Source of the DNA: Umbilicaria muhlenbergii
Lineage: Eukaryota > Ascomycota > Lecanoromycetes > Umbilicariales > Umbilicariaceae
Direction of reading: 5' to 3'
NCBI GenBank assembly: GCA_000611775.1
Contig: KK106983.1
Span: 499,542-563,541, forward strand
Length of the DNA: 64,000 bases
Below, one piece after another: positions 17,084-62,525 of the stretch. Each line of letters begins with the position of its first letter. The first letter of the stretch is position 1. The notes below the pieces were generated by a model. That model was not told where the DNA came from, did not search any database, and worked only from the letters and a program-made list of their open reading frames with translations. The position numbers were made by a program, and so were the translations under genes.

Positions 17084-17134
17084 GTTCATTGAACATACTT
17101 GTTGTTCAATGAACATTGTGTGAGTTCATTGAAC
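17084..17134. promoter_or_regulatory. Palindrome array 1: three GTTCAWTGAAC sites, 20-bp spacing
   Basis: GTTCATTGAAC at 17084, GTTCAATGAAC at 17104 and GTTCATTGAAC at 17124, exactly 20 bp apart. It lies about 385 bp inside the left end of element A, where CACTA-type elements usually carry subterminal transposase-binding repeats. Confidence 0.85.
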
Positions 17135-17229
17135 TTTCAAGTCATGAGAGAATATTGCATATAATGCAGACATTGCAAGATACATTTATACATGATTAAC
17201 CTCAAATGACTGTAGACTCACTCATCATC

Positions 17230-18930
17230 CCTTTTTATGAGATATATGACTCATCATGTGTAGTGCAGATTACAGATTATCTCTTGATCTTTTAATCTGC
17301 ACATCATGTGCTGACTTGTAATCATCACTTTGAACATCATCATCATATGATGCAGCTGCAACTGCTTAAATAAATCCTCAATCTTATACTGCTCCTGTGA
17401 CTTCAGTGCTGTCATACTCACTGTCATCATCACTGTTAAAGCTTCATTCCTCAGCCTGCAACTTCTTAATATTAATGTTGATGCTACACTTAGCTCCTGC
17501 TGAGGTCATACTCAGCTTTCATTGCTCAAATGACATCTAACGCTCAGGAAAGTACTGAATGATAGAATTAATTCAATAATGTAAGCTTTGATTATCAAGA
17601 ACACATCATTAGCCTGATTTAAGCAACATTAAAATAAAGAAAGACAGTCAAAGAGAGAAAGAAATAAATGAGTCACAGTTCAAGCATCATTAACATTGAG
17701 AGTGCTAACTAAAATGTTGTTATTAATGCATTCACATGTTCAACAAGTTTTTCAAGAATTTAAAAAACTTATATATTTAGTTCTTCTCCTCTTGAATCTC
17801 TCTTTTCTTTTATAACATAATCACTGTCTTCTTGCCTCTGTGAGTATTAACAAATTTCTCATAGTTAACCTGATCATCAATGATACTGTTACTCATTCAG
17901 AAGCATTTCATTTTCATGATGTTTAATTTCATCTGTCCTGTGAATTGTGTTTAATTTCAACTTTAATCAGCAGGTTCTTTACATGACTTCTTATGCTTTT
18001 TCATTTTTATCAACAGCATATAAAGGTCTGCTCTTTTAATGTTAAGATTATGTTTTTCAGTGTTGTTGAGTTCATCTGTTGATTCAGAATTGAGTCAGTT
18101 CTTAATTGTTGAATGTTTAACATGTCTTGTGATGTTCTATGTCACATTAGCACTTCATCATAAGTGATAACTTGATATGTCTTGCTTCTTTCTTGTTTTC
18201 ATTATTAATGTCTTCTTCATTCTTGTCCTCACTCTCTTCTTCACTTTCATTTTCTTTGTCATCTTCATTGCTGTTCCTCTTAAACTTCTCTTCATCATCA
18301 CTGTTGTTCTCCTTACTGCTCTTCAGCTTTGATTAATCTTTGTAGAAAGTGCTCCTATTCAGTGATTCTGAGCTAAAAGGGTTGTTTCAATTCCTTGACA
18401 AATGCAACAATGAGCTTGAAAACCACTGACTGTTCATCTCATACATTGGCAGGTCATTCAACATGTCAGCATATGAATTGTCAACTGTTTTAACATTCAT
18501 TACTTCTTCAACTTTATTCATTCTGATCTGCTGATGTACCTGATGTAGCAAAATACTCAAAATAGCAGTTTGTTGAGTCTCAACCTGAGCATATCAAGTG
18601 TGCTGTACTTAATTTCATATAGCTGCAGCATTATAATGTTAGCACACTCTCCCTGTGTTTAAGGTCATCACTTACTCATAACTCTTAAGTCATTAAACCT
18701 CTTAAGTTTAAATACCCCTGATTCATATTCTCTGATGCAATGTGTGATCATTGTTATCATGAAGAGTAATATGTTAACTGACAGTGAATCAAACATGTCT
18801 TTCATATAAGTTAGGTAGGTTATATTTATATTTATTTTCATGTACATCATCTGTATTAATTCATTGATGATGATTTAAGCATAAAATTTAACCTTGAGTG
18901 ACTGCATCTTCATCAATCAATAATCAGCAC
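17230..18930 (-). pseudogene. Unknown element gene with acidic region (element A)
   Basis: I do not recognise this protein. On the minus strand it reads from a region like IIINELIQMMYMK ... YLTYMKDMFDSL ... CIREYESGVFKLKRF, through a Lys- and Glu/Asp-rich stretch, to a C-terminal run of Asp near 17.4 kb. It is duplicated in element B (43.7-45.36 kb), where the acidic stretch is clearer. The hydrophobic segment followed by CIREYESG loosely recalls DUF6532-like fungal proteins, but that is only a hint. Many TGA stops. Limits approximate. Confidence 0.5.
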
Positions 18931-21900
18931 TCAACACAGGTTCAAGTCACTTACCTTGTTACATGTAAAATTATCTGCTTTAAGCAATCATTCTGCAAGA
19001 TTTTTAATGTTCTCACATGACATCTGCAGCTGTCAGTCATAAGAGCTGATAATTAACTGTCATATCTGAGTCATTAAGTGACTGTGAAAGGCATTAAATG
19101 AGTCATAAAGCTGTCAATGTTAATTATGATTTATATAAAAAGTCAACTCTTTCTACCTTGCAGGCCTCTGCAGCAGTGAGAACATTTTACATCTCAGCAT
19201 GTTTCTTGTCTGTGACTGTTCTCATTCATTGAGTTATTTTTATTCAAGCATCACTCATCCTGTCATTAAGTCACTGTTTGTTAATATCTCATCATGAGGT
19301 GCTTTCTGATTCAGCATTGTCACTGAGTATTCATGCCTTCAAGTACATCATATAAACTGACATCAACAGTTCATGATCTGATGTTGAATGACAAGGCTCT
19401 CAGCAGAGTGCCTTTTCTTATAAGTACTGAGTTGAGATATCTGAGGAATTTTTGTTATTGTAATCTGAATCAAGGTTGTGGTTTTGTGAGGTTGACTTTT
19501 CAGTAGAAGATGAATGTGAAGTAAAGATCACTTCTCTTGTAAAATACCTCAATGATTACTTTAAGTGATATTCAATTGCTGATCTGAACTGTTAAACTGT
19601 TAATATTGAATCACTGCACTCTCTGTGTGATAAACATTTACCCTCATACTGATGCAGTCATCACTTATGAAATTGAATATGATATCATTATCACACTGTT
19701 TCTGCATCTACTTTATAACAAGAACTCAACACCTCTTTGATGTCTTCTCATAATTTACAGCCTTTGAATGATTATGCTTCACCTGTAAGTAATTAGGTTT
19801 TGCATTTGCTTGAATTAATTTAAAGTAAACAGTGTTTACTGTTTATTCTGTATTCAGATCATGACCTTTCATAATGCTGATGATGCTCAACACTGATTGA
19901 CTGAGACAGGATGATGTGATAAATATAAAAGATTATTTCATGATGCTGTTTTGAAAGATTATTTTGAAAAATTGTTTTGAGAAGGGTGCTGTTATTTCAA
20001 TGCATCACACTGATAAATTAACAACATGTCAGTGAATTAGCACAGGTTTGTGCAGTTACATGCAGAATTACAAGTAATCTGTTTAATGAACATCAAGAAG
20101 ATGTTGTGAGTCTTGACAGTCACTGATATTAAAAATGTGAGTGATTGATTAAAAATGTCATCACAACAAGAGATGCTGTGACAGAGTCTTGCAGCTTGTA
20201 ATTTGTGATGTAACTTCAAGACTTCTTCTTCTGATGTGTTGTTTCAATCAGTGATCATGATTCTGACAGGCAAGAGATCTACAAGAGATCAGATGCTGTC
20301 ATTCACAGTTTTTTTTAAATCTTTGTATTTAAAACAGTAACACAACTGTGTAACATTGACTTCCTCTTAAGCACTGACACATTGACTGTGTAGTGTATGC
20401 ACATCAGCATAGTGTCTCACTCAAAGGCTTGAGTGTAAGATATTAAAAAAGAACAGAGTGCACAAGGCCTGAGATAATACTGATGATGACATGTCTTAAT
20501 AAGTCATGATCACAATCTGATGACAGCAGGTTACATGATGATTTTTAAATTAACAGATATCAGTTTCCTGCTTCTTTATTCATTGATATTAAGTCAAAAC
20601 ACCTCAGTGAAGGCTTTTTCCTCTCAGAATTAAACCTTCCTCATAAACTTCATAGCCTGCTTCATATGATTGAGAATGTTCATTTGATTATAATATCTAT
20701 TAATAACTTCTGTTCAAAGACTCATTTCTGTTGCTGTCTAGATGCAATTAATGATGAGTGAATGATTTCTGAAGTTGACTTTCTACCTAGGAGTAGGTAT
20801 TTATACTGTGTTGATGTTAATTTTACAGCAAACATGCATTAACTTATTAATTGTTGATCAGGGCGTCTACAGATGATTAGATGACTTAATTTTATGATGA
20901 TCCTTAAAATGTATCTTGAACACCTGAAATCTCACTTCTTTTGATCATGAAGAAGAAATGTATTAACTTCTCAGTGTGCATCTCTTTCAAAGTCATCTTT
21001 CATTCCTGCTCATTTGTGATGCGCATGCTCATCACTTTTTTATACTTATATAATATGACATCCTCATCATCCTGATAGTTCAACTCCCAGGTAATCAATG
21101 TCAGGAAGGTGAGGAAGTTTAAATCATTCACAGTAATTATATTTTTTAATGCCTCAGTCTTTAGCAGATCCTGTGATTTACAGAAGATGCTGTAATGTGC
21201 ATTTTAATAAATCTGTATCATAATATATTAAATGACTTTTATTAATTCATCTTTCTTGCTGTTTATTTGTGAGACGGGTCCTGCAGCTGAACATTAAGAT
21301 GTGTTAATCATGTGACTTAAGATTGAAGAGATTAATTCCTCATGAGGATTTAATCTTCTCTTGCTCTTCACCTGCCTCCTCTTGTTGTAATTGCACTGTT
21401 GTGTCATAAATGTGAGGCATTTGTCACGCCACTTGTCAGAAACGCTGCAGAAGATGTGATTAAATTCATGATATATCAATTTAAAGATTCATCATAATAA
21501 CTCTTTGATTCTGCTTGTGTTTAGTCAGCTCTTTAAGAGACTCAGGTTTCTCATTTAAGTCTGCAGTTGTGTTAATATTAAAGCATACATGCAGTCATCA
21601 ATATTAAGGTGATTGTGTATCAGGTCATTTATTCATGTCATTAAATTAACTTTTTTCAGATTCTTCATCATGTAGTTTATTGAGGATGATGAATAGGTGC
21701 TTTTAATGCAGCATTTAAAAACATGCAGTGACCTGATGTTTAAAATGTGAAGTAAAGTCTTTGACATTATCAGTTCCTCTGAGGGCCTCACTGCATTTAA
21801 ATTCAATTAATACTTCATCACAGGCAGATGCTGAAGGTTTTGTGACTTCATGAATGAGTTGAAAATTTCAGTAAAGATCTCTTTATACAAATGATGACAG

Positions 21901-21950
21901 TATATCACACGCCTCTATTTCAGGAACGTCATGATAATCATCATTGTAAA
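18931..21950 (-). pseudogene. Unknown element coding block (element A)
   Basis: This block reads as protein over long stretches of the minus strand when TGA is ignored, but no family is recognised. At about 21.95-21.6 kb it reads YNDDYHDVPEIEA, HEVTKPSASACNEVLI and related text. At 21479-21294 it has KWRDKCLTFMTQQCNYNKRR followed by a basic stretch. Near 21.1 kb it has NFLTFLTLI. At 19.9-19.1 kb a separate frame is continuous. Element B repeats it at 45.4-48.57 kb, with transition differences. It may hold more than one gene or several exons. Its upstream border is palindrome array 2. Confidence 0.45.
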
Positions 21951-21974
21951 CATGTTCAGTCAAATATGCAGTCA

Positions 21975-22048
21975 GTTCATTGAATGAAAATCAACATTCA
22001 TTGAACTAAAATCAACATTCATTGAATGAAAATCAACATTCAATGAAT
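21975..22048. promoter_or_regulatory. Palindrome array 2: four sites, 21-bp spacing
   Basis: RTTCATTGAAY-type sites start at 21975, 21996, 22017 and 22038, each 21 bp apart. The array lies between the 3' end of the transposase gene and the start of the next minus-strand coding block, where the promoter of that block would be. Confidence 0.85.
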
Positions 22049-22049
22049 G

Positions 22050-25000
22050 TTATCTCCCTCAATTATAATACAATGTCACTTGCACTCCTCACTCAAGAAA
22101 GTCCTCTTCATAGATTGAATTGTACATGTCTCAATCATTGAAACTGTTGAGATAATAAATAGTCCTCTTATGTTCTTGAGTTTTCCTTGTCATCACTGAT
22201 ATAATGTGTACGCTTCTTATGATTGTGAACATCATATAAAACCTTTGACCCCTCACAGATCAAGGGTTCTTTGAGGAACACTTTGATTAATCACTTAATT
22301 CAATCATGCTGTGTACACCATGTTGACGTGCCTTGTTGAGTGGTTTAAATAGATCAATTAAAGCATCAGTATGATGAATGTTCTTTCTCTTATCATTTCA
22401 CTGCAGTGAATCTATCACTGATGCAATAAGTTGTAATTTCCCTGATAGTTACCTGTTTAATATGTTAAATGCATCAATGATATGATTAAGTTGTTTCTGA
22501 ATCAGAACACAGTCATGTCTTTAATTTTTAAACTTGTTTTGTCAGTCAGGTGTGCAATATACTCTCTCAGTTATTAAAACTTCAAGATTATTCACATTCT
22601 TCTCATTCTGTTTTCAGCACTTTAGTGACCCGTGTACACATATGTGATATGATTCAATTCAAGATGAGTCTTTTGCTTTATGATTCAAATCTCTGTCTGA
22701 TACTGTGATGTCATTCATAGCATTCTGATATTTTTTTACAAAACCTGTCAGGGTATCTAGTAAGCCTGAGATATTAAAAATATCAGTGAGAGTTAAAATA
22801 AAGCATCACACTTTGAGGTTGAGCCCTGCTAACTGTATTAATGAAGCTTTATTTCTTTTTGAGAGGCCTTTCAGCTTCTTGAGTGAATAAGCTCAGCTGA
22901 GTTTGATAGCTGAAGTTATCATTGCATTACATGATGTTTAACTGTCCTTGATATCACTGTGTAAGATGATGTCTTTCATAGTCAGTAGTTTCAAACAATG
23001 AGTGTTATGAAGCAACAGTTGTCATTGAAAGATCTTTTACTTATTTGTTCAGTTAAAGTATGTTTTTATTAAGTACTTATGAGTGACTTCACTATGTTCT
23101 GTATCAACATTGTCTGCAGCACTGTATTTGTGAATGTGTTCAATGTAGTGAGTCATCACATGTAATTTTGAGATGTTAAAGTGCCCTTTATTCATATTAG
23201 ATTCAGACAGCCTCAGATGACAGAAGACATCCTTGAGTCTGTTTATTTAAAATAAAGCATGTTGCATGTATTAAAAAGTGTCCTCATCATGTGAATGATA
23301 CTGTGTCAAAGTAACAAAGTTCATCATTACTCATGTGAAATGCACTGCTGCTGAAGCGTGAGGAGTCAAGAGTGATGCAATTATAAAAATAATTTAACAG
23401 ACAATTAATCTCTGATCTGCTTCAATTTATTGTTTGACACTGCTGTACTTCATAAATCTTTTCAAGCCTGAGAATGCTGAAATCAGATGAAATCTCTGAT
23501 CAAGTTGAGTCATCTTTGAGGTGAAGTTGATTAAATCTCACATTCTCTTTCTTCTTCTTGCAGTGAAAACATTCTTCTCAATAAGTTCACTCAGTCATTA
23601 AATTAAGTAAGTAACCATCCCTTTCAAGAGTTGATGAAGTACATCAATCATCATGAATTCATGTATGTTAACTTGATGATGAGCTCATGTGAAATTGATG
23701 ATGAAATGAATTTAAATGCTGTTATTATTCAGTATCTCTTCTTCCTCCTGACACTGAATTTAATTCATTGTTGTTTGATGAGTTCTTGAAGGTCAGTTGC
23801 CTTCAAGGTTTTCATGCTCATTGAGAGGGACTTGACATATAATGCAGTGTTGATTCATCTTTACCTCTGTAATCAACACCTGTTCCTCATAATTAATCAT
23901 GAAGCTTGTAATAACAGAGTAACAGCATCTGATCTTCTCATCTGCACACTTTATCAAGATATCCTCTCTAGCAGCTGTCTCAACAGTTAATACTCATCAG
24001 TCTTAATTGAATTGCTGTGAGCATGTGAAGTACATACACTTTAAAATCAATAACAATGTCATATGTCAGACTCTTACTTTGATGTTATCACTGTCATTCC
24101 TCACAATCAGCAGGAAACTCAGAAGTATTAAATTAAGTCATGTCTGAAAACATCTTGATTATCAATTTAAATTCCTTATGATTAAATATATTAATCAAGC
24201 TGATAAATCATCTTGATGCTGTGTCAGAACTGTCTTGTCAGTGGAAATCAACAGTGACATTATTGTTGCATCATTCAGAAGTTTCATCTGTGTCTCTCAT
24301 CATCAGTCTTCAGTATGCATCTCACTATAGACCCTCTTGTTTTCAGAGTTATATTGTTGAGTTGAGGCATATGTCAGATTACTGTTGAAGGCTTGATGAC
24401 TTAATAAAAACTGAAGAGTGTTGATGATGTCTCTGTACTGTATGCAATACACAATGTTCATTACCTCATCATAGGTAGATTTTACTGTAAAGGTTTAAGA
24501 TGTTCACTCATCTTCACCTCTTACAGAGCTGATATTATATGAAATCTGATGTAATTTATTTAGTCATTCCTCTGCATTCTTGAAACTTAGAAGTGAATGA
24601 AAGTGATGCAGATGAAGATTTTTAAAAAATCTGTTCACACTTTCTTTCATTGCCTGAGTTTGATGCAGTCAGAAAGTGAAGGCATAGTCTGTCTTATTAC
24701 AAAACAGGTGATAATTTGTGTTAATAGATGTGTTTGTGCTCTGCTTGTGATCATAATTTATAGAGGCCTCTGAATGAGCTGTATTTAAAATGCCTTCAGC
24801 TCAGCAGCCTGTTGCCTCTTGAAATGATTCAACTCATAAGGATGTTGATGTTGACAAAAGATCAGATTAAATTGATATGCCTTCTGCCTGCATTAATCCT
24901 TGTTTCATAAATGACTGTGAATCAGTTGATGTTCTTCAGGGAATTGAACATCCTTGATTGTCAGGAATATTCAGGAGGCTGTCATTCACATTGACATTAT

Positions 25001-25340
25001 AATTCATCTCAAAGTTCATATACTCATTGCCTTGTTCCTCTGATACCTCTTCTGTTTCCTCAGGTATTGTCTTGATAATCTCTCAGTTTGTGTCATTTTG
25101 TTCATTTGTTGTTAAGGGCATTGATGACAGTTCACATCATGAGATTCTTCATGATCAATTATGAACATGAACTGAGCACCTTGTTATATGATGTTTCAAT
25201 GCATTACTGTTATTCACACTCTTTCTGCAATCATCACACACATGAAACATGCTTATCAACAAAGCACAAACTGTCTTTGTTAATGTTTGATTGCCTGAGT
25301 GTCTAGATGCAGTGACCGGGATGATGTTTTAATATTAATA
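22050..25340 (-). pseudogene. Plavaka-type transposase (element A)
   Basis: Read through TGA on the minus strand, the order matches fungal Plavaka transposases of the CACTA/EnSpm group. It has TDYAFTF and VNRFFKNLHLHHFHSLLSF, then STYDEVMNI near 24.5 kb, then TIMSLLISTDKTVLTQH near 24.2 kb. FMINYEEQVLITEVKMNQHC with a following C-x2-C lies near 23.9 kb; HHQVNIHEFMMIDVLHQLLK near 23.65 kb; and NTEHSEAAHKYLIKA near 23.1 kb. Known of the family: these enzymes cut and paste elements with short terminal repeats and 2-4 bp target duplications. The N-terminal part (about 25.3 kb) may be a degenerate zinc finger. Dozens of TGA codons and Arg-to-Cys/His changes make it inactive. Start and end are approximate. 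Confidence 0.85.
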
Positions 25341-26620
25341 TCATCAACTCATGATTAACATCAACATGAGTGTGAGCTGTATCTGTTTTTAATGAAGTCA
25401 ATGTAGACATTCCACTCCTCAAGGTGTGACAGACAACAAAACATGAATAAGTCTTTAAAAATTAAAGAGATCAGTGAGTAATCTGCACAACCTCTCAGTG
25501 AAAACAGTGTTGAGAAGTTTAATCTGATGCTCTCAGAGGTGTGTGAGTCAATCAAGATTCTGTTTAAACACATTACACTCTTGACAACATCTCCTCACTC
25601 AGGACTTCCCTCAACACTGTTGTAATACTTTATGTCCCTGAATCTGATCAATCAAGGCAAAGTCAATGAGCCTGATTCATCAAACCCTCAATGAAAGATC
25701 ATGACAGCACATTTAAATTTAATGTTGAGATTAAGTCCTGCACAGCAGCAAGAATATAAGCAATCTTAAAGCAGAGAACAGCACCCTGAGCTGAGGTGAA
25801 TAATACAGATGACACAGAGAATGAGATGTAATGATGAAGATAAAACTGATAAAAGATACAAGAGAGAATAAAAATGACACAGTGAAAACCTGTTCATTAT
25901 ATCAATCATAACTTGACAATAAATGAGGGTTATATCAGGCTAAAGGGACAGACTGATTGCAAGATGATGAGATGACAGCAGTAATGACACAGTTGCATAA
26001 AGATGACAGCAGTGTTCTCTTAACAGTGTGTAATATGTTATTTAATTCTCATGGCATAAAGAGTGTACAGGATAATAATGAAAGCACTGTTTCAATCTGC
26101 AGTTCCTGAGATTTTGTGATGATTTTGATCATTAATTTCAAAAGTGATTATTTTTCATGAAGGAATAAAGTGCTGAACTAAGTTAAATCAACCCTCAGCT
26201 TTGTATAATCAGGTTTAATCCTTATATAACATTTTAATGACTTCAGTCCCGCCCTGTTGATGACTGATAATGATAACAGTGTCATTGCACAGCCTTTCAT
26301 CAAAATCTCTCATCAGTAATCTTGTATACTTAGTGTATGTTGTCAGGCACCTGTCATTGATCATCATTTTAAAAAATATTCTGAACAGATCTTCTGACTT
26401 GATTACATCATGTCTTTACTACAGTTTGAACCCTCCTGTCTTCAAGACACAGTCACAAATTCATCAGTGTGAAGTTGATGAAATGCAAGTGTTGCCTCCT
26501 ATGTTCTATTATCAATGCTCAGGTCATCAGTCTTCACTTAAAATTATGAGTTGTCACGCACGTGAATGCAGCTTGACAACATTAAAAGTTAAAATGATAT
26601 GAGCTTCACCTGAGTCATCA
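25341..26620 (-). pseudogene. Unknown element gene upstream of the transposase (element A)
   Basis: Unrecognised protein, shared by copies at 51.95-53.23 kb and in part at 61.57-61.87 kb. The best-preserved stretch, on the minus strand at about 26.45-26.26 kb, reads SEDLFRIFFKMMIND, TYTKYTRLLMRDFDERL and VIIISHQQGGTEVIKM. Further on come AAVQDLISTLNLNALL and NQAHWLCLD near 25.7 kb, and MCLNRILIDSHTSESIRLN at 25573. These may be separate exons or genes, since frames shift between them. It could be an N-terminal extension of the transposase transcript. Confidence 0.45.
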
Positions 26621-27178
26621 GTCTCTTCTCAGCACGCAAGAAGTATCAGGAATGTCATCAGTCATGAAGTTGCAATAAATACTTATTAAAACTGATCACC
26701 TTCTCATGAAACATCTTAAGCTTAAAATTAACAAAAGAAGTTTTCATGATACTTAAAAACTGACATCACCCTTCTGATCTCATTCACATTATACAGGTGT
26801 CTCACTGTCATGATGTAAGTATCTTCAGAGTTAATAATCAGGATTACATGAACATATTTAAGTCAATGATACAGCTGTTCTGATACATTGAGCCTTTATT
26901 ATACCACTATAGAGTGAAATACACAAAGGATAAAGTAGAAATTCAGAGTTTTTGCAGAATGATGATCAGTCTCTTTCTTCATTAATGTGCAATGTGAATA
27001 TCTGTGAGTTGAGAGACACTTCAACTCTTTAAATTTTTTTCAATGACATTACAGCTTTTCTTGCCTGCATGATTTCAACAGATAGCATATACTAATGTAG
27101 CAGAACCTCAATCAAGATAACATGTCATGATTAAAATTATTAAGAAAGCACACACCCTTGATGTGTTCTTTTCATTCA
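26621..27178. other. Non-coding spacer, upstream side of the divergent region
   Basis: This stretch is shared with element C (about 61.88-62.47 kb) but not with element B, which diverges near 53.28 kb. I recognise no coding frame. It separates the minus-strand gene ending its upstream side near 26.6 kb from palindrome array 3. Confidence 0.4.
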
Positions 27179-27229
27179 ATTCAATGAACATGAGTTTGAT
27201 TCAATGAACACATCTATCATTCATTGAAC
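27179..27229. promoter_or_regulatory. Palindrome array 3: three sites, 20-bp spacing, divergent promoter region
   Basis: ATTCAATGAAC at 27179, ATTCAATGAAC at 27199 and ATTCATTGAAC at 27219, exactly 20 bp apart. They lie in the gap between the minus-strand gene (upstream end about 26.6 kb) and the plus-strand gene starting at 27947. Confidence 0.85.
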
Positions 27230-27286
27230 ATGCTTATAAGTGTTGCAGAACAGTGGTTCAGATATTTTTCATTATTCATTAATTTA

Positions 27287-27596
27287 TTATCATCAGCAGC
27301 ATCACATCTCTTCATGATTTACTGCATCAACACTCTTCTTGCCCCTCACTACTCTTTTTATTGAACATTTTTTTTAATCTTCATGACATCATCTTCTGCT
27401 TCTCTCATCAACATTCTCATCATGACTCATTCATTAATCTGTTATCATCAGCAGCACTGCATCATCTCATAATTCACTTCATTAATGCTCTTCTTGCTTC
27501 TCATTATCCTCTTCATTGAACATTTTTTTTAATCTTCATGACATCACCTTCTGCTTCTCTCAGCAACACTCTCATCATGATGATACATTATAATAA
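27287..27596. repeat. 155-bp pyrimidine-rich tandem duplication
   Basis: TTATCATCAGCAGC recurs at 27287 and 27442. Each unit is rich in C and T and contains ATTGAACATTTTTTTTAATC. The same duplication lies in element C (62.58-62.88 kb). Pyrimidine-rich leaders are common upstream of fungal genes, so this may be part of the promoter of the gene at 27947. Confidence 0.8.
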
Positions 27597-27946
27597 TAAC
27601 TCATCATCTGGCAGTCACTTTAAAATTTACAGTGAAAGATGAAGTCCTTAAATGAGCAGGAGTGAGACATAACATTTATTAATTAAATGTATGAAACTTC
27701 TTCACAACCTCTCATTTAACCTCAGAAGCACTCAGAGCTGCTGAGTGAATTTAATAAATGAATTCAAGACCTCTTCTCCTCTACATTATTCATACTGTCA
27801 GTGAACATAAAGAACTTTGTGATCAGAGTGCAACTGTTGAATGAGATAAAACCTCTCACTGTCACTTTACATCAGTGTGAGTGATGTTATACTGATCAGT
27901 TTGACCTCATGTTACATAAGTTCATTAAATTCAACTTCCTGCTCAG

Positions 27947-30853
27947 GTGATGAAACCTTATTTCAAGCTTATTAAATCACTTTATTTGCATGTGCATGAA
28001 TATTATCATCAATTTACAATACTCAACACCCGTGAGAAGGATATGACATCAGAGTCATACAACATGAGCTTAAACCTCAAAGAACTCTTCATGAAAAATG
28101 AGATCTTGAATGATCTGCCTGATCTAAGTGCGCTTTATGACGCAGTGAGAGCTGAAAAGCTGAAGTATGCACATGCAACTGAGCGCAAAATCCTTCAAAT
28201 GATAGAGGATTATCAAGGCAACTGAATAACTTCTCTTATGTCATCATATTAATCATTACTGTATGACCTATATCACTTCCTGAGTGACGCTGAGAAGAAG
28301 TGCATTCAGCATCAGATTTCATCAAATCTGAGGATTAAACTGTCTGAGGTGCATGATCTGAATATTTACTGAATGAGAAGTGATGATCTTTTCAGACCTT
28401 TTAAATCAGTCTCAGTAGTCACATGAGGAGGCATGACTGACTATGATTTTAAATTCAGAGTGATTAGAACTTTATATGATAAGTGAAAGAGAGAGCTGAA
28501 CTCAGAACCTGATCTCATCAAACTCATTAAAATATTTAAGAACATGACAGTGAGTGAAGAGATTAAAGAGCTGACAGACAGAAGTGACAAAGAGAACAGC
28601 AGCAAGAAATTAATTATCAGATCTTAAAGAAAGAATTTAAATGAACTTAAGAATCAAAACATCACTGTGAAAGAAGTGAATACAATCAGTTAAAATGAGA
28701 CTACTTAAAGTCAGGTCAATTCTGATATCATGCACATAATTACTTTATCAAGATCAACCTCAACAAATGATTTAATTTTATCTGCTGTTCAACCTCACCT
28801 GTTAACCTTCAGTTATCAGTTTTTGCAAATGATGACTCATCAGAAAAGACAGTTCAAGCTCACATGTTAAAACTCACTTCATGACAACTCACTCACTCAA
28901 CATCTTCTGTTACATTTCAATTCACCTCACTCAGTGAGTGAGACATCAGATCATGTTAAGTTGATTATATCATCTTTGTTATGAGATCATGTGCCTCACT
29001 CAGCTCAGTCAGTCAGATTTAATAATTTAATTGATACACTTCACCTGATGAGTCATTTCATGTTAAAAGAATCATGATCATTACTCATACTTAATCAGCT
29101 CTCATTAATCAAGGAATACCTTGCATTGACTTCATCAGCATTAAAGAAAGATGAGTTTAACTTCATTAAACTCATGTTACACATGACCTCATTGAGAATG
29201 AAACTCAGTGCATCAGGTTTTATCATCAACAATCACTCATCTGCTCAGACACATTTAAAGCTTGAAACCTGATCAAGAATTCTCTCATCACAGCTCATAA
29301 GCCCTCATACATTTCATGATGTAACATCAGACATCATTCATCTCATGGCATCTCAGCTGATTGACATCATAAAGTAAATCTCTACCTCAGAGTCTACCTG
29401 CACCTCAAGAGAAGCAAGGTTGAGGTCAAGTCTTCAACTTAATTCAGTAAAACTTAAGATGTTGAAGAAGGATGATCATCTCAACTCTGCATCAACTGAG
29501 ATTCCTGAACTGAAGAGAGCAACAAGATTGAGGTCAGGTCTTCAATTTAATTCAGTGAAACTTAAGATGTTAAAGAAGGATGATCACTTCAACTTTGCAT
29601 CAACTGAGATTCCTGAACTGAAGAGAGCAAAAACAATCATCAAAGAAAGTAATCAAGAAGGTGAAATCAAGATCTCAGGCTCACCTCACATTCTGAAGAT
29701 ATACAAAAAGGGAGGATCAGTCAGAAGAAACATCATCATGAGTCACAAGAAAGCCTCAATCAACATGAACTTTACAGACTGATCAATTTATTATCATGAG
29801 TTCAATTGAAGTTCATATGACATGAAAGACATAAACACAGCTTCATTAATGAATGTGAAGCTCATCAATCACCTGATGCAACAGGTGATGAAATGACTCA
29901 TTATTAATAATTAAATGACTTAATACAAGGCAGACTTTGATGCAAATGAAGCTTTTAAAGTCATACAATACAGTCTGAGCTCAGTCATCAAGCTTAAAGT
30001 TCAGTCTGATGAAGAAAACTGAGGGGCTGAATGATACAATCAGGTCTGATGAGGTCAACATAAGTTCATCAGTGAGGCAGAGGCAAGGAAAGGAGATTCA
30101 GTGATATTAAAGAAAAATGTGAAAAAGAAGATAAAAAAGTGAAAAGCAAGTGAATGAAGTTTGAGTGAGAGATCATTCATTCAAGGAGACTTTAAATTTA
30201 ATTACACAGTCATCATCATGAGGTTCTTAAGATCAGGTAAGCACTTAAGACTTGTATAATTCATGAAGCTCTCACTGCTGATTGAAAAACCTGCTCAACT
30301 GAAGACCTCATGACTGATCATGCAAGAATCAGCATTATCAAGCTTAATGAGAATAAATTAACCCTCAGAGATGAAGCTGAGGCTGTTGAGCATGAGCATC
30401 AGGTCAGAAGGATAATCTTTAAGTAATATATTTAAAAATCATGATGTGATGAAGAAGAAGGCAATCAGGAAGATAATGAATGAAGAGATGACATGAATAA
30501 AAAACAAGTTGAAAAAGATCACACACCAGATGCTCATGATTAATGAAGCACTTCAGCAGGCTTACAATGATGACTGAGATCTCCTCAACATCATTATTTT
30601 TTTAAAGCAAATTCAGGCAGACCTGATCAACTTTATTAATGAGTTCATCATCAACCTCAGTGCTCATCTTGAGGATGAAAGCAAGTCTAAGTTCAACAAG
30701 GTGTGATTTATGAACATGTGAAAGAAAGCTCTTAACAGACATGATTACTCAGATTTCATCATTGAAGACAACTGAGAAGAGGTTAAAAAACTGAATGTCT
30801 TAATGAGAAAGAATGAAGGGGATAGTCTTTTATCAGAAGAATACAAGAAATAA
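27947..30853 (+). pseudogene. 968-codon unknown gene of element A, one continuous frame
   Basis: From ATG 27947 to TAA 30851-30853 a single frame stays open apart from transition-type stops (mostly TGA, some TAA), with no frameshift. I do not recognise the protein. Early text includes HEYYHQFTILNTREKD, AEKLKYAHATERK and the later KRELNSEPDL. A Ser/Thr-rich middle is followed by two 36-residue repeats (29416-29631), a Lys/Glu-rich helical region and the end EEVKKLNVLMRKNEGD. The copy at 63243-64000 shows the original codons at several stops: TAA at 28625 is CAA there, and CAA near 28214 is TGA there, which points to an ancestral CGA. It is the last gene before the right end of element A. Earlier exons may lie at 27.7-27.94 kb. 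Confidence 0.75.
29416..29631 (+). repeat. 108-bp tandem duplication inside the 968-codon gene
   Basis: Two copies of a 36-residue unit containing LNSVKLKMLKKDDH and STEIPELKRA, offset by exactly 108 bp and therefore in frame. Confidence 0.9.
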
Positions 30854-31117
30854 AGAGCAGAAGCAAGTCATTTAAAAGTTAACTTTATTAAGAAAAAAAG
30901 ATGTTGATCAGAGCTTTTAAATGTAGAATAAGTAACTTAACATAAATCAATGATGAGCAGGATGACTGACTGAGGGAAATATTAATTATGTATATGTGAT
31001 GAATGTGCGCTCATGGCAACAACAAGTTGCTAAATGAGTGCTCAGATTTAAAATATAAGCGCTAAAACTGTATCTCTTTAAATGAAAATATCTGAGCGGG
31101 CTGCCACTTTGTGAATG

Positions 31118-34160: not shown

Positions 34161-34623
34161 TGTAACAGGTGGTGTCATAGTGATGGAGATAATACAATCA
34201 TTCAATGAATTATATCAAGATACAACCAATCATGTTGCAGGTATGACTATACCACTGATCACATGTAGACTCAGATAAAACTAGAGGTTGTAGACTTATA
34301 AGATTGCATTTGAGACATGAGTTGAGCATGAGCTCCTAACTATGAATCTACCTGTGATTATATAAAACTTTAGAAGACTCATGTGTAACTGTACTGCTTG
34401 ATGTGTATAATCTCTCTGCTCAGGGTGCTCATGCTCTGAGCATCATGAGTGATTGAATGCTTGAGGTGCTTATGCCCTGAGCATCATGAGCAGTACCACA
34501 TGTACACTTACTGTGCATATCAATTAAATGCTCAGGGTGCTCACATCCTGAGCATTATGAGCAGTACTACATGTACGCCTGCTATGCATATCAATCAGAT
34601 ATCATTTAGTGAAAGGTGTAACA
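34161..34623 (-). repeat. Gypsy 3 LTR (3' LTR)
   Basis: Starts TGTAACAGGTG and ends AGGTGTAACA. Near its right half are three imperfect copies of a dyad, GCTCAGGGTGCTCA ... TGAGCATCATGAG, at about 34.42, 34.46 and 34.53 kb. These could form hairpins and might act as a terminator or promoter element. Confidence 0.95.
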
Positions 34624-34670
34624 TTAACTTCCTCCTCAACATTTTCATTCTCAAAAACTCAACCTTCCTC

Positions 34671-35210
34671 ATGCCTTCATCTAATATCAGAAAGAAGAAG
34701 TCATCTACTTCTCATCATTTCTATTTGACTGATTCAATCACTGAAAATGAAAGAATTATCATGTGAACGTGTGATCACTGCCTGATCAGTGGCAAGGAGT
34801 GCAAGGTGTTGAATGATTATGATAAATGTGACATCTGCATTCAGCTGAGCATCTCTTGCGACTTGTTCATCTCTTCAGAGGAGATCAACAAGGTGAGTGT
34901 GAAGATTCATCACCTGAAAAAAGAAAAAGATGCTGTCACAGCACAAAAGTGAAAAATAAGAGTGAAGAAAGAGAGGCTTCACAAACAAATCACTTTTCTG
35001 AGGAAGAAACAGTCAGACTTGATTCATACTGAACTTTAAAACATTGAAGAGCTGAAGATGAATGAGTGCATGACTGCTGTAACTGTTGATTCTTTTAACA
35101 GGTCTCTCCTCAACTTCTTCACATTTAAAGTTTTCAGCTTTAATGACATGAACTGACTTCCTGCAGGTTTTTTTGCTGAAATTGATGCAGTTTCATCACA
35201 CAATGAGTAA
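34671..35210 (+). pseudogene. Antisense Zn2Cys6 / coiled-coil gene of gypsy 3
   Basis: A plus-strand frame of 179 codons from ATG 34671 to TAA 35208-35210, broken only by TGA/TAA of the transition type. After a basic start (NIRKKKSS) comes C-x2-C-x6-C-x8-C-x2-C-x6-C (CDHC, then KECKV, then CDICIQLSISC). This is exactly the spacing of the fungal Zn2Cys6 binuclear cluster of the Gal4 family. It is followed by a Lys/Glu-rich heptad-like stretch, as in Gal4-type dimerisation regions. The gene sits between pol and the 3' LTR on the opposite strand, and its 3' end overlaps the pol end tail to tail by about 70 bp. A DNA-binding or self-regulating role is inferred from the motif. Similar Cys-cluster proteins are, as far as I recall, common unnamed predictions in ascomycete genomes. 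Confidence 0.8.
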
Positions 35211-40312: not shown

Positions 40313-40353
40313 AGTTCATTTTATGACTGATATTCTGAGAACAGTGCTCAAAG

Positions 40354-43159: not shown

Positions 43160-43544
43160 CATCAGCAATTTAGCAATGAGGATATGAGTTAATATCATTC
43201 ACTTAATGTTAATGCAATGCGCTCTGATCCACTGATCCCATGTCATAGCTCATAACCACTCAGAGCGCTTTTATTTGTATCATTTGTGTATTGCGCAAAT
43301 GTTGCTTTTATCAATGCTATTATTTCACGCAGTTTTACCGTGGAAATTCATAAGAGCGCATAATGTATACAAGTTAATAACATTGATGATGTCACTTTCA
43401 ACTGTCAACATCATTATAGTTCACTGAGCACTAGGTTTATTTCATCTGATTCTTATGATTTACGTGATGATGTTGTTGAGTTTATGCATTATTAATTCAG
43501 TGCTATGTTCATCTTTCATGTTTAAAGTACTATAGATGATGAAC

Positions 43545-43595
43545 ATTCATTGAATGTACTTGTTGTTCAATGAACATTGTGTGGGTTCATTGAAC
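43545..43595. promoter_or_regulatory. Palindrome array of element B left end, 20-bp spacing
   Basis: ATTCATTGAAT at 43545, GTTCAATGAAC at 43565 and GTTCATTGAAC at 43585. Same place and spacing as 17084-17134 in element A; the first site has a changed outer base pair but stays a perfect palindrome core. Confidence 0.85.
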
Positions 43596-48582: not shown

Positions 48583-48656
48583 GTTCATTGAATGAAAACC
48601 AACATTCATTGAACTAAAACCAACATTCATTGAATGAAAATCAACATTTAATGAAT
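48583..48656. promoter_or_regulatory. Palindrome array of element B, four sites, 21-bp spacing
   Basis: Sites start at 48583, 48604, 48625 and 48646, matching 21975-22048 of element A in place and spacing. Confidence 0.85.
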
Positions 48657-51945: not shown

Positions 51946-53230
51946 ATATCATCAACTCATGATTAGCATCAACACGGGTGTGGGCTGTATCTGTTTTCAA
52001 TGAAGTCAGTGTAGACATTTCACTCCTCAAGGTGTGACAGACAACAAAACATGAATAAGTCTTTGAAGAACAGAGAGATCAGTGAGTAATCTACACAGCC
52101 TCTTGATGAAAACAGTGTTGAGAAGTTTGATCTGATGCTCTCAGAGGTGTGTGAGTCAATCAAGACTCTGTTTAAATACACTACACTCTTGACAACACCT
52201 CCTCACTCAGGACTTCCCTCAACACTGTTGTAATACTTTATGTCCCTGAATCTGATTAATCAAGGCAAAGCCAATGAGCCTGATTCATCAAACCCTCAAT
52301 GAAAGATCATAACAGTGCATTTAAATTTAATGTTGAGATCAGGTCCTGCACAGCAGCAAGAATATAAGCAATTTTAAGGCAGAGAACAGCACCCTGAGCT
52401 GAGGTGAATGATGCAGATGATGCAGAGAATGAGATGTAATGATGAAGGCAGGACTGATAAGAGACACAAGAGAGAATGAGAATAACACAGTGAAAACCTG
52501 TTCATTGTATCAGTCATAGCTTGACAGTAGATGAGGGTTATATCAGGTTAAAGGAACAGACTGATTGCAAGATGATGAGATGACAGCAGCAATGACACAG
52601 CTGTGTAAAGATGACAGCAGTGTCTTCTTAACAGTGTGTAATATGCTATTTAGTTCTCATGGCATGAAGAGTGTACAAGACAATGATGAAAGCACTGTTT
52701 CAATCTGCAGTTCCTGAGGTTTTGTGGCAGTTTTGATCATTAATTTCAAAAGTGATTATTTTTCATGAAGGAATGAAGTGCTGAACTAAGTCAGGTCAAC
52801 CCTCAGCTTTATATAATTAAGTTCAATTCTTGTATAACATCTTAATGACTTCAGTCTCACCCTGTTGATGACTGATAATGATAACAGTGTCATTACACAG
52901 CCTTTCATCAAGGTCTCTCATCAGCAATTTTGTATACTTAATGTATGTTGTCAGGCACCTGTCATCAATCATCATCTTAAGAAATATTCTGAACAGATCT
53001 CCTGACCTGACTACATCATGTCATTGCTACAGTTTGAACCCCCCTGTCTTCAAGACACAGTCAAAAATTCATCAAAGTGAAGCTGATGAGATGCAGGTGT
53101 TGCCTTCTATGTCTTATTATTCATGCTCAGGTCATCAGTCTTCACTTGAAATTATGAATTATCACGCATGTGAACGCATCTGAGAAACATTAAAGGTTGA
53201 AATGATATGATTTTCACCTGAGTCATCAGT
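51946..53230 (-). pseudogene. Unknown element gene upstream of transposase (element B)
   Basis: Counterpart of 25341-26620: SEDLFRIFLKMMIDDRCLTT and RDFDERLCNDTVIIIS-type text on the minus strand at about 53.05-52.88 kb. The part from 52893 is repeated at 61575 on the other side of the cargo. Confidence 0.45.
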
Positions 53231-53240
53231 CTCTTCACTT
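52893..53240. repeat. Direct repeat flanking the cargo (left copy)
   Basis: About 350 bp matching 61575-61930 (and A 26283-26660), starting at CACAGCCTTTCATCAA. Element C is colinear with A beyond this block, while B diverges from A near 53.28 kb. Confidence 0.85.
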
Positions 53241-53520
53241 AGCACGCAGGAGTATCAGGAATGTCATCAGCAGCAAAGTTGTAATGATTATAAAAGAGAT
53301 AAGGTGAGTGATCTCTGAGCATGAATTTACATTGTAACAAGCATGTTATGAAGATATTTAAGTGTAAAATCATCAGTGACTGTTCTTGAAGATGATGATA
53401 CATCATGTGCCTCATGAAAGAAGCCTCACATGCAGAATAAAGTTTTAAATCAGGACTGATGATTCTGTGACACAGAGCATTCAAGTTTGCTTCATGCTTC
53501 ATATTCATGTTACACTGCAT
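53239..53520 (-). pseudogene. Upstream extension of the element B unknown gene
   Basis: A 93-codon open frame on the minus strand (HRIISPDLKLYSACEASF, HHLQEQSLMILHLNIFI, YNFAADDIPDTPAC) leads into the conserved unknown gene. Elements A and C have different sequence at this position. Unrecognised. It could be the original N-terminal part of that gene or the first piece of the cargo. Confidence 0.4.
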
Positions 53521-53639: not shown

Positions 53640-54110
53640 TTAATTATTAAGTCAAGTAAGCTTGTCTCTTCTTTATTCATCAGTCTTCTTTCTTCTTCTT
53701 TCTCAACTTCTCTTTACTCATCAGTCTTCTTTCTTCTTCTTCCTCAAGACAGTAAGTTTGTTTTCTTCTCTTTACTCATCAATCTTCTTCTTTCTTGTTC
53801 AACACAGTAAGCTTGCTCTCTTCTCTTTACTTATCAGTCTTCTTCTTTCTGCCTCAACACTTCTTTACAATTCACATGTTTATTTAATGCCTTCTTGATT
53901 ACTCACCTGACATCATCTTTTTTTCTTAAGACTCTCTTCTTTCCTTCTTGAGATTCTCACTTATGCATTAAATAAAGCATAGTTCACTGAACATAATATG
54001 ATTCATTGAACTGTGCATCTTCTTCTTTCTGCCTCAACACTGTAAGCTTGCTCTCTTCTTTGTACTCATCAGTCTTCTTCTTTCTGCCTCAACATGTCTT
54101 CACAATTCAT
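53640..54110. repeat. Pyrimidine-rich imperfect tandem repeats
   Basis: About six imperfect units built on CTTTACTCATCAGTCTTCTT and AACACAGTAAGCTTG, strongly C/T rich on the plus strand. It lies upstream of the gene at 54327 and may be its promoter leader. Confidence 0.75.
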
Positions 54111-54279
54111 GTATTTGTCTGATGCTTTACATGTTTACTCACTCAACATTCATCTTCCTTCCTCAAGACTCTTCTTTCCTTATCAAAACTCTCACTTATG
54201 CATTGAACGGATCATAGTTCACTGAACATCACAAGGTTTATTGAACATCACACAGTTCAATGAATTAAGCTTAATGAAC
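53982..54279. promoter_or_regulatory. Palindrome arrays upstream of the first cargo gene
   Basis: Group one: GTTCACTGAAC at 53982 and ATTCATTGAAC at 54001. Group two: GTTCACTGAAC at 54217, GTTTATTGAAC at 54236, GTTCAATGAAT at 54255 and GCTTAATGAAC at 54269. Most spacings are 19 bp. The second group ends about 50 bp before the gene at 54327. Confidence 0.8.
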
Positions 54280-58302: not shown

Positions 58303-58356
58303 GTTCATTGAACATGAAATCACAGTTCAATGAACGCAAAATGTGATTCAATGAAC
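58303..58356. promoter_or_regulatory. Palindrome array inside the cargo, 21-22 bp spacing
   Basis: GTTCATTGAAC at 58303, GTTCAATGAAC at 58325 and ATTCAATGAAC at 58346. It lies in the gap between the stretch ending near 58.0 kb and the coding region starting near 58.56 kb. Confidence 0.85.
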
Positions 58357-58559: not shown

Positions 58560-59049
58560 GTGATATGAAGTCACTACTCAAGCAAGATTCAGAAACACAG
58601 AGATGATTGCAGTATCTGAGTTGAAGGGAGGATCTTAAACAAGAAAGAAGAGTACAGAAGAGAAAACTGCATGATGATATAAATCATGTTCAAGCAGAGC
58701 AGGCAGTCACTATTGCAGACTTTGACAAGCTGAGTCACAATTTCTACATTGTTCAGGCTCAATTTCAAGAATTTATGACAAGACAAGAGTGAAGGCTGAA
58801 TTACATGCAGTCAACTCACTTTAAATGAAACAAAACAGTTACCTTGAAGTCTTATGAGTTGAGATTCAGATGTATGAAAGCCATGAGTGAAGATCACTTG
58901 TCATATTGTGAAGAGGCAGTTGCATGAGATCATCATGATTAAAATTAATAAATCATCACTGACATCATCAGCCTTGCACTGAATATTGCTACGCTGAAGG
59001 TATCCTCCCACAGATCATGTAGTCAAGAAATGATGTCATCATGTAGTCA
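58560..59049 (+). pseudogene. Unknown cargo gene, coiled-coil-like
   Basis: The plus strand read through stops gives KRKLHDDINHVQAEQAVTIA, LSHNFYIVQAQFQEFMTRQE and MKAMSEDHLSYCEEAVA. The protein is charged and helical in character. No family recognised. It runs into the 300-bp tandem duplication that follows, with stop-laden but coding-like text. Confidence 0.4.
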
Positions 59050-59649
59050 AGAAACAGCATCATCATGTTGCATTACTCAAGCTCAATGTGAGGCTGACCT
59101 TAATACTTGCAAGCAGTCAGCCAACATCATTCAAGTTGTGAATCAACAGAGTCTGAAGTGCTCATGATCAGCAACAGTAAAATCACAAGCGCTGTTTGCA
59201 CAAGAAGATATGAGATTCATGAACCTTGATGACCTTGATTGTGAGGCTTCAACACCAAGGAAAAAGTGACACCTCTGTAGCAGCAGCTATGTGGATTCAA
59301 CAAGCAGAGATGATGAGATGAATGATGTCATTCAGACTACTACTTCTCAAGAAACAGCGTCATCATGTTGCACTACTCAGGCTCAATGTGAGGCTGACTC
59401 TAATACTTGCAAGCAGTCAGCCAACATCATTCAAGTTGTGAATCAACAGAGTCTGAAGCGCTCATGATCAGCAACAGTAAAGTCACAAGTGCTGTTTGCA
59501 CAGAAAGATATGAAATTCATGAATCTCAATGACCTTGATTGTGAGGCTTCAACATCAAGGAAAAAGTGACACCTCTGTAGCAGCAGCTATGTGAATTCAA
59601 CAAGCAGGAATGATGAGACAAATGATGTCATTCAGACTACTACTTCAAG
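59050..59649 (+). repeat. 300-bp tandem duplication
   Basis: The block starting GAAACAGC-TCATCATGTTGC recurs exactly 300 bp later (about 59051 and 59351). The copies are nearly identical, differing by transitions. The unit is a multiple of three, so a protein frame would survive. Confidence 0.92.
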
Positions 59650-59771: not shown

Positions 59772-60127
59772 GGCAGCAAATGCTTCAAAGTTGATCAGCC
59801 TCAAGAGCAGAACATGAAGGACCTCAGTTTTAAAGAACTGATTAATAAGATTCTGAACACTCTGCCTGTTGCAAACATGAAGCTGGACTCAGAAGAGGCT
59901 GAGGATGTCATTATGATGAGTCAGCACTTGAGTGACAAAGATCATTATAGGCAGCAAATGCTTCAAAGTTGATTAACCTCAAGAGCAGAACATGAAGGAC
60001 CTCAGTTTTAAAGAACTGATTAATAAGATTCTGAACACTCTGCCTGTTGCAAACATGAAGTCAGACTCAGAAGAGGCTGAGGATGTCATTATGATGAGTC
60101 AGCACTTGAGTGACAAAGATCATTATA
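59772..60127 (+). repeat. 178-bp tandem duplication in the PRP28 fragment
   Basis: GGCAGCAAATGCTTCAAAG starts units at 59772 and 59950; both encode KDLSFKELINKILNTLPVAN. The unit is 178 bp, not a multiple of three. Confidence 0.93.
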
Positions 60128-60662
60128 GACAAACAATGATGTACACAGCCACTATGCCCTCAGCTGTTGAGTGCATCATCAGAAAATATCTACGCAGGCC
60201 TGCTATCATTACTATAAGTAACATGAGTGAGGCTGTGAGAATGATCAAACAGCGCATTAAATTCATCAATGAAGAAGATAAGAGGAAGAAACAGCTTTTG
60301 AAGATATTATCTTTGAGGGAATTCACACCTCAAATCATCATCTTTGTCAATATTAAATGAAACTGTGATGCTGTTGCTAAAGATGTAAAGCATATGAGCT
60401 TTTCATCAGTCACTCTTCATGATAATAAAACACAAGAGCAGAGAGAGGCTGTGCTGACATTCATACACAACAGCACTACTGATGTTCTGGTTGCTATGAA
60501 TCTCATCAGTAGAGGTATTGATGTGCAAGACGTCAATCTTGTGATCAACTTCAACATGACAATGAACATTGAGAGCTACACGCATTGAATTGATCATACA
60601 GATCATGTTGACAAGAGTGATGTTATTATTATGTTTCTTGACAATGAGGACGCTGATGTTAT

Positions 60663-60721
60663 GTAAGATTTACTTATCAGTGACTGATGACTTTTGAGCA
60701 TTTTACTGACTTGATCTCTAG
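60663..60721 (+). other. Retained spliceosomal intron in the PRP28 fragment
   Basis: Starts GTAAGA and ends CTCTAG, with a TACTGAC branch-point-like site about 20 bp before the end. Removing these 59 bp joins DADVM to YDFKQM in frame, as in Prp28 proteins. Confidence 0.85.
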
Positions 60722-61560: not shown

Positions 61561-61574
61561 GTTCAAGTATTGAA

Positions 61575-61930
61575 AGAAATATGCACAGCCTTTCATCAAG
61601 TTCTCTCATCAGCAAGCTTGTATACTCAGTGTATGTTGTCAGGCATCTGTCATCAATCATCATTTTAAGGAATATTCTGAACAGACTTCCTGACCTGATT
61701 ATATCATGTCATTGCTACAGTTTGAACCCCTCTGTCTTCAAGACACAGTCACAAATTCATCAGCATGAAGCTGATGAGATGCAGATGTTGCCTTCTATGT
61801 CTTATTATTAATGCTCAGGCCATCAGTCTTCACTTGAGATTATGAGTTGTCATGCACGTGAATGCAGCCTGACAACATTAAAAGTTGAAATGATATGAGC
61901 TCTGTCTGAGTCATCAGTCTCTTCTCAGCA
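61575..61930. repeat. Direct repeat flanking the cargo (right copy)
   Basis: Matches 52893-53240. On the minus strand it carries the conserved part of the unknown gene (TKYT, RDFDERL region). Beyond it the sequence stays colinear with element A. Confidence 0.85.
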
Positions 61931-62474
61931 TGCAAGAAGTATCAGGAACATCATCAGCTGTGAAGTTGCAATGAATACTTGCTAAAACTGATCACCTTCT
62001 CATGAAACATCTTGAGCTTAAGGTTAACAAAAGAAGTCTTCATGATGCTTAAAAATTAACATCACCCTTCTGATCTCATTCACATTATACAGGTGTCTCA
62101 CTGTCATGATGTAAGTATCTTCAGAGTTGATAATCAGGGTTACACAAATGTATTTAAGTTGATGATACAGCTGTTCTGATATGTTGAGCCTTCACTATAC
62201 CACTATAGGGTGAAATGCATAAAGGATAAAGTAGAAACTCAGAGTTTCTGCAGGATGATGATCAATCTCTTTTTTCATTAATGTGCAATGTGAATATCTG
62301 TGAGTTGAGAGACACTTCAACTCTTCAAATCTCTTTCAATGACATTACAGCTTTCCTTGCCCGCATGATTTCAACAGATAGCATATACTAATGTAGCAGA
62401 ACCTCAATCAAGATAATGTGTCATGATCAAAATTGTTGAAGAAGCACACACCCTTGATGTGTTCTTTTCATTCA

Positions 62475-62525
62475 ATTCAATGAATGTGAGTTTGATTCAA
62501 TGAACACATTTATCATTCATTGAAC
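62475..62525. promoter_or_regulatory. Palindrome array of element C, 20-bp spacing
   Basis: ATTCAATGAAT at 62475, ATTCAATGAAC at 62495 and ATTCATTGAAC at 62515. Counterpart of 27179-27229, upstream of the plus-strand gene at 63243. Confidence 0.85.

Follow-up and report, generated by a model that had tools for sequence, protein, structure and literature searches.

The window analyzed here, a stretch of 64,000 nucleotides from Umbilicaria muhlenbergii (C3:499542-563541), contains two copies, A and B, of a large PlavakaB-type DNA transposon, and within them arrays of the 11-bp palindrome GTTCAWTGAAC, whose sites follow each other at steps of 19-22 bp, or two turns of the helix. The arrays were confirmed and far exceed what chance would produce. 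Genome-wide, the same arrangement is also found in Ty3 retrotransposons, mostly in the long terminal repeats (LTRs) of a chromovirus. We propose, at a probability of about 45%, that the arrays would serve as platforms for one host-encoded, dimeric and helically phased protein that regulates unrelated transposons.

Counts and spacing of the palindrome

Exact copies of GTTCAWTGAAC numbered 7 in the window, against 0.22 in shuffled sequence. With up to one mismatch allowed the count was 29 versus 3.55, and the core TTCAWTGAA was found 32 times, versus 5.4 expected from shuffles. Fifteen core pairs lay 19-22 bp apart, while 200 dinucleotide shuffles gave a mean of 0.005 such pairs and a maximum of 1. 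No core pair in the window had any other distance below 40 bp. The 19-22 bp spacing claimed in a preliminary description of this DNA is therefore borne out, and is far more regular than in shuffled sequence; the one exception is a 14-bp step to a degenerate site at 54269.

Genome-wide scans covered the 34.8-Mb assembly (7 contigs) and used the reversed motif as control. The exact motif was found 184 times, the reversed motif 18 times. Where two exact copies were separated by 2-32 bases, their starts lay 19-22 or 40-43 bp apart in 40 of 40 cases (control, 0); steps shorter than 19 bp were scanned with exact pairs only. The 9-bp core formed 277 pairs at 19-22 bp and 114 triple arrays, with none of either in the control. 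Five core pairs fell at 23-38 bp (control, 0), each of them at 38 bp, or twice 19 bp within a longer array. Together, the shuffles and the reversed motif rule out a chance origin of the arrays.

The strict spacing is the strongest evidence for a predicted protein-binding unit: an assembly of protein along a single helical face would explain a two-turn step, whereas sequence drift does not explain it. The arrays are not simple copies of one array, because both spacers and steps differ among them (20/20; 21/21/21; 22/21; 19; and 19 with 21 or 22). An RNA hairpin was rejected by inspection, as the arms comprise only 5 bp around a single base. Heat shock elements have TTC and GAA two bases apart. 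This candidate was also rejected, since the motif has three bases (AWT) between TTC and GAA.

Arrays in the Plavaka-type transposon

Copy A (16699-31117, 14.4 kb) was delimited by self-alignment and by its ends, and is internally deleted. Copy B (23.1 kb) starts at 43160, extends to the window end at 64000 and continues to 66305, with its last 2.3 kb past the window. The two copies are about 91% identical across the left 10 kb, and 845 of the 863 differences are transitions. Copy A begins with CATCAGCAATTTAGT and ends with GTGAATG, next to a 2-bp target duplication TA; copy B has the same right end and a duplication AA (both duplications by eye). Each copy contains a broken Plavaka transposase on the minus strand, at 22074-24866 in copy A (PF18759, E 2.7e-39, and aligned with relatives) and at 48682-51498 in copy B (by alignment with relatives). 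PF18759 had 11 matches genome-wide, all above the cut-off and all with stops.

PlavakaB elements have the termini 5'-CATCA..TGATG-3', 2-3 bp target duplications, and C(2)C and H(3-4)H motifs in the transposase, according to their description (Kojima, PMC12730594). The left end CATCAGCAATTTAG fits the CATCA terminus. Compared with that description, the transposase domain, the CATCA left end and the 2-bp target duplications are common to both, whereas the present element ends in GAATG (within GTGAATG in both copies) and not in TGATG, measures 23 kb and carries a Prp28-like fragment. The word 'subterminal' is not used in the main text of the PlavakaB paper (PMC12730594).

Site counts per cluster, for which up to 2 mismatches were allowed, were 3 at 17084, 27179, 43545, 48583, 58303 and 62475, 4 at 21975, 2 at 53982 and 5 at 54198-54269, where the sole step outside 19-22 bp leads to the 2-mismatch site mentioned above. 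Three arrays are the same in the two copies. The first (17084-17134 in copy A, with three exact cores, and 43545-43595 in copy B, with three cores) has steps of 20 and 20 bp, starts 385 bp inside the left end of copy A, and was present in 10 of 10 element copies compared. The second has four cores with steps of 21, 21 and 21 bp in copy A (21975-22048) and three cores with steps of 21 and 21 bp in copy B (48583-48635), where a tandem repeat continues to 48657. The third (27179-27229 and 62475-62525) has three cores with steps of 20 and 20 bp in either copy. The remaining arrays lie in the stretch missing from copy A: two cores at a step of 19 bp (53982-54011), four cores at steps of 19 bp plus the degenerate one 14 bp further (54198-54279), and three cores at steps of 22 and 21 bp (58303-58356), before the Prp28-like stretch.

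All of the at least eight clusters of 3-5 copies previously described do exist, with the qualification that the cluster at 53982 has 2 sites. Because the window holds two copies of one element, only about five arrays are independent (17084/43545, 21975/48583, 27179/62475, 53982-54269 and 58303). The earlier placement of an array at an element end has to be narrowed to one array near the left end but inside it, as no array comes closer to the right end than 3.9 kb. The roughly five Plavaka arrays stand outside recognized Plavaka genes. The array at 21975-22048 adjoins the transposase gene at or just past its 3' end; 26 bp separate it from the final residue of the alignment (the match ends at 22074), and it could overlap the last transposase codons.

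Short elements of about 1 kb have their left ~100 bp in common with Plavaka (28 matches, most at 74-76% identity), and a similar right-end pattern was found in 12 of 16 loci, with right ends that mostly read GCGGATG, GCAGATG or GTGGATG. Target duplications of 2 bp were clear by eye in three of them (L020, L026, L034) and unclear in the others. Compared with a reference element (L025), most aligned pieces were 92-98% identical and a few 85-90%. The elements are found in loci L019-L034, at 31585 in the window and in locus L037 past the window. No core was found inside the short elements of the 16 loci, and 15 of these loci had no core at all; the other (L031) has a single core at position 252, about 430 bp outside the short element. 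The shared ends suggest that the short elements move by the Plavaka transposase. If so, the arrays would be dispensable for movement, and the absence of cores argues against a role in transposition.

The preliminary description had also pointed to the survival of the cores in heavily mutated DNA and to a motif that escapes the mutated contexts. Both observations are correct, with 3 of 77 core columns differing between copies A and B, versus 860 of 9876 others. As evidence of selection, survival has to be rejected, because the cytosines of the motif escape the mutation contexts: C/T differences between the copies affected 67% of CG, 29% of CC, 18% of CT and 12% of CA sites, and the cores hold only CA and a terminal C, the least-mutated contexts. 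In Neurospora, repeat-induced point mutation is biased to the CA context. The order in the window (CG > CC > CT > CA) is unlike this pattern and not CA-biased. The observed/expected ratio of CG in the window is 0.08, a strong depletion, and G+C content ranges from 29 to 39% in 2-kb steps. No open reading frame of at least 150 amino acids with a start codon was found in the window. Directly 5' of the window (C3:497542-499541), 1164 of 2000 bases are N, which explains the low G+C there.

Copy B contains on the plus strand, at 59932-60675, a fragment similar to the splicing helicase Prp28/DDX23 (best chain 5dtu, E 9.2e-80), which looks like captured host sequence. Tandem duplications are found nearby, at 59047-59646 and 59772-60128. 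A direct repeat of about 395 bp (52896-53290, plus strand; partner at 61584-61977) borders the 8.3-kb segment that is absent from copy A, which suggests that this loss was a deletion by recombination between the repeats. In the left part of the element, a weak DUF6532 match was noted on the minus strand (18692-18892, E 6e-5, 23.4 bits versus a Pfam cut-off of 24). For the plus-strand gene region at 27620-29779, a search for relatives yielded 3676 candidates, none at E <=0.01. A Pfam scan of both strands of the badly mutated element gave no match to a DNA-binding domain in the Plavaka frames.

Ty3 carriers and spread over transposon families

Among the 100 triple arrays listed of the 114 found, 38 were assigned to Plavaka, 50 to LTR ends of the chromodomain Ty3 element, 11 to a second Ty3 family and 1 to a single-copy locus. 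The assignments were made by eye from the spacer sequence and anchored by fetched loci of the Plavaka, LTR and second Ty3 elements, and overlapping rows of one long array were counted more than once. The preliminary description had taken the arrays as specific to one transposon family. This is contradicted by the 62 of these 100 that lie elsewhere, mostly in Ty3 LTRs, and family-specific arrays are rejected by the spread over Plavaka and Ty3 families. The finding named beforehand as speaking against this claim, spaced arrays as dense outside the family as within it, was largely obtained, though 99 of the same 100 are within transposons.

One copy of the chromovirus is present in the window between the two Plavaka copies (34161-40816, minus strand), with reverse transcriptase, RNase H, integrase zinc-binding, SH3_Tf2-1 and chromo domains. 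Its LTRs (34161-34623 and 40354-40816) measure 463 bp and are flanked by a 5-bp duplication TTCTC. One core is left per LTR (34200 and 40393), 39 bp from the sense 3' end. Judged from the Ty3 pol, SH3_Tf2-1 and chromodomain of this copy, the main LTR carrier is a Tf/sushi-type chromovirus. Elements of this type prime themselves from the 5' end of their RNA. Fourteen ends, several of them 3' ends or mutated, were searched for a 9-base complement of the site following the LTR, and none was found within the LTR. On the minus strand of the window, at 3258-3548 and 13974-14273, short open stretches resemble Ty3 reverse transcriptase by eye.

In order to sample LTRs independently of the motif, we used LTR sequence without the array as the query. 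Of 358 first-look candidates, 40 were scored, and 37 of the 41 strongest matches were fetched; four ended before the array and were left out (C3:374944, C6:1416370, C4:3143770 and C5:2284343), as were 17 short matches. All 37 LTR ends had 3-6 sites, C/T and G/A variants being allowed; as these ends were ranked by likeness to L042 and include its own copy and both LTRs of some elements, they are neither random nor fully independent. The steps were again 19 (41 cases), 21 (28) and 22 bp (9). Some LTRs carried extra sites, with 6 in L073 and 4 in L083, and among the LTRs found by the motif 5 in L044 and 4 in L040. Within the LTR, the array is 39 bp away from the sense 3' end, and a TATAWA box stands 203-277 bp from that end (14 motif-found ends); relative to the TATA box, the array lies some 100-130 bp downstream. 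CG observed/expected ratios were 0.31-0.50 in the array-bearing L042, L043, L044 and L047, compared with 0.07 in Plavaka copy A and 0.11 in copy B. The values of these four loci refer to the LTR alone, as whole-locus values (0.52-0.68) are inflated by flanking DNA.

The second Ty3 family is represented by L052, with an LTR of about 208 bp, reverse transcriptase and integrase. Three of its 11 listed rows rest on fetched loci (L050-L052) and the others on spacer identity. The array of L052 (4013-4065) falls within an open portion of pol and reads SMNHMSNSMNEGQSSLN, with a step of 21 nt, or 7 codons. The earlier statement that arrays avoid coding sequence therefore holds for the Plavaka arrays between genes, apart from the possible contact of the 21975 array with transposase codons, but not for this family.

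The single-copy array (L049, 1470-1520; C3:5530869-5530919) comprises three cores with steps of 20 and 20 bp, and the DNA there has a G+C content of about 50%. The array is located between two convergent genes, a TLDc gene and a gene that we take from its sequence to be SAC1-like, although Pfam gave no match for the fragment. No gene or RNA was found at the array locus itself. A TLDc-domain protein encoded in this genome shares 91% identity with one assigned to Lasallia pustulata, in keeping with an ascomycete near the lichen-forming Umbilicariaceae.

A proposed shared binding protein and competing explanations

The proposed mechanism would start with one sequence-specific protein whose symmetric dimers recognize GTTCAWTGAAC and stack along one helix face at every second turn. 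The gaps between Plavaka genes, the chromovirus LTR and the second Ty3 pol would all offer it the same array grammar. Such a protein would have to be available to all carriers and is most likely host-encoded; once bound, it might raise or insulate transposon transcription. The sites, their phasing, their presence in several families, their lack in the short derivatives and the additional sites of some LTRs are observed; protein binding, a dimer, a host origin and a direction of the effect we infer. A host-encoded protein is favored for three reasons: the sites are used by three families; their increase in number points to a benefit for the element; and array-bearing LTRs that retain CG exist, while the Plavaka transposase matches all carry stops. 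The last argument, from CG retention, is not strong. Somewhat more tentatively, one trans-acting factor may run a regulon made up almost only of transposons, in which at least two Ty3 families would have converged with a DNA transposon on the phased palindrome and would share with it a regulatory or anti-silencing protein. The preliminary description had suggested operator or transposase-accessory arrays. The look of an operator stands, by inference from the palindrome, its several copies, their position on one helical face and their location between genes, and the proposed joint control of element and cargo genes by the arrays fits their positions; the accessory part does not stand.

Several observations weigh against a shared regulatory protein. 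An array downstream of the TATA box, as in the LTR, is unusual for an activator, and no TATAWA box was found at a consistent place beside the Plavaka arrays. Exact GTTCAWTGAAC is absent from 26 of the 37 homology-fetched LTR ends, which have C/T-changed versions only. In these ends, transversions affected 0 of 1221 core cells versus 3 of 576 spacer cells (p 0.03; 9 of the 37 rows, with an 11-bp spacer due to an indel, were left out of one spacer's count), a weak test of core conservation; conservation of the neighboring 39 bp of LTR tail is nearly as high (1 in 1443 cells). In the second Ty3 family, whose array is in coding sequence, a peptide repeat may account for part of the array. Finally, host genes hardly use the motif, as only 1 array among the 100 listed of 114 is outside transposons.

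The main rival is a VANC-like protein that is or was encoded by Plavaka, acts on the element's own non-coding gaps in an anti-silencing or activating manner and is exploited by the Ty3 elements, which would have acquired the sites and ride along. Plavaka carries the required arrays, about five of them, and at least one gene region without recognized relatives, and Arabidopsis offers a precedent, as VANC6 motifs are found in the unrelated AT9TSD1 (PMC5735166). We consider a Plavaka-encoded factor less likely than a host-encoded one, given that the chromovirus has more of the listed arrays than Plavaka, that some arrays are in LTRs with more CG left than in Plavaka, where 11 of 11 transposase matches have stops, and that no DNA-binding domain was recognized in the scanned frames of this badly mutated element. 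Less probable again is surveillance by a host protein that binds the arrays in order to cluster or silence transposons, comparable to the CENP-B homologues that act on Tf2 in fission yeast. Such surveillance would agree with a main carrier of the Tf/sushi type (SH3_Tf2-1, chromo), with sites in LTRs and with the C-to-T mutation of many sampled copies. Sites that serve silencing alone should, however, be lost, and instead three element families carry them, with 4-6 sites in some LTRs.

The idea that the arrays assist the transposase, in the manner of CACTA subterminal repeats, is largely refuted and retains very little probability. It could draw on the one array 385 bp inside the left end and on the resemblance of Plavaka transposases to those of EnSpm/CACTA, reported in PMC12730594. 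It is contradicted by the 16 short-element loci without an inner core (right-end pattern in 12), whose mobilization by Plavaka is itself deduced from shared ends, by the position of the arrays, which are not near both ends and at their closest 3.9 kb from the right one, and by LTR retrotransposons, which use no such transposase and carry the same arrays. Hardly any weight is left for the view that the arrays are artefacts, produced either by AT-rich DNA with C-to-T mutations or by simple tandem repeats. The arrays at 21975, 48583, 54216 and 58303 do score as tandem repeats of 19-22 bp, and many carriers are AT-rich. The composition-matched controls, however, yielded no pair and no triple in the whole genome, where the core itself forms 277 pairs and 114 triples, the spacers differ within most arrays, and the single-copy locus has about 50% G+C.

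Arrays of a short motif are known from other transposons. VANDAL elements are Mutator-like. In CACTA/EnSpm elements, subterminal repeats of a short motif are found near the element ends. Like these, the present arrays repeat a short motif within a large DNA transposon, and the two superfamilies are related. They differ in not being clustered at both ends, in being absent from short derivatives and in being present in retrotransposons. In the gypsy insulator of Drosophila, the host zinc-finger protein Su(Hw) binds a site array near the 5' part of a Ty3-type retrotransposon; an insulator of this type blocks enhancers through the bound protein. A site array in a Ty3-type element is common to both cases, whereas the motif is another one here, the sites are fewer and helically phased, and a DNA transposon is included. 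In fission yeast, the host DNA-binding CENP-B homologues and Sap1 act on LTRs of Tf-type chromoviruses, and we know of no phased palindrome arrays there. The type of LTR is alike; the motifs are different, and here a DNA transposon is also involved.

By analogy, the nearest precedent appears to be the VANC system of Arabidopsis, in which some copies of AT9TSD1 are derepressed (PMC5735166). Both systems have a short motif at high density in non-coding parts of a DNA transposon (introns, intergenic and terminal parts in VANDAL), a repeat number that varies between copies and an unrelated element with the motif, which in the VANC case is also affected. Unlike those of VANDAL/VANC, the present arrays consist of a palindrome repeated strictly every two turns, and the largest share of those listed belongs to a Ty3 retrotransposon. 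The transposase is that of Plavaka and not Mutator-like, and a VANC-like gene was not found in a Pfam scan of the mutated element.

Literature searches found no name for the motif; those listed among the papers with its spellings were unrelated by title, many of them on antimicrobial resistance, and nothing relevant by title was found on shared or phased arrays. In a study of transposons in Umbilicaria pustulata, Gypsy is the largest class I group, with 8.8% of the genome, and the words motif, CACTA, RIP and methylation are not used in its main text (PMC8773270). Factor-site arrays in transposons are thus of a known kind, whereas strict two-turn palindrome arrays common to a DNA transposon and Ty3 elements are new, as far as the literature searched shows.

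The usual view is that each transposon brings its own regulatory signals. In this genome, one strict DNA grammar extends across transposon classes, and a single protein may set the activity of several transposons. The case would test whether fungi have a counterpart of the VANC-like anti-silencing of plants, under strong C-to-T mutation of repeats.

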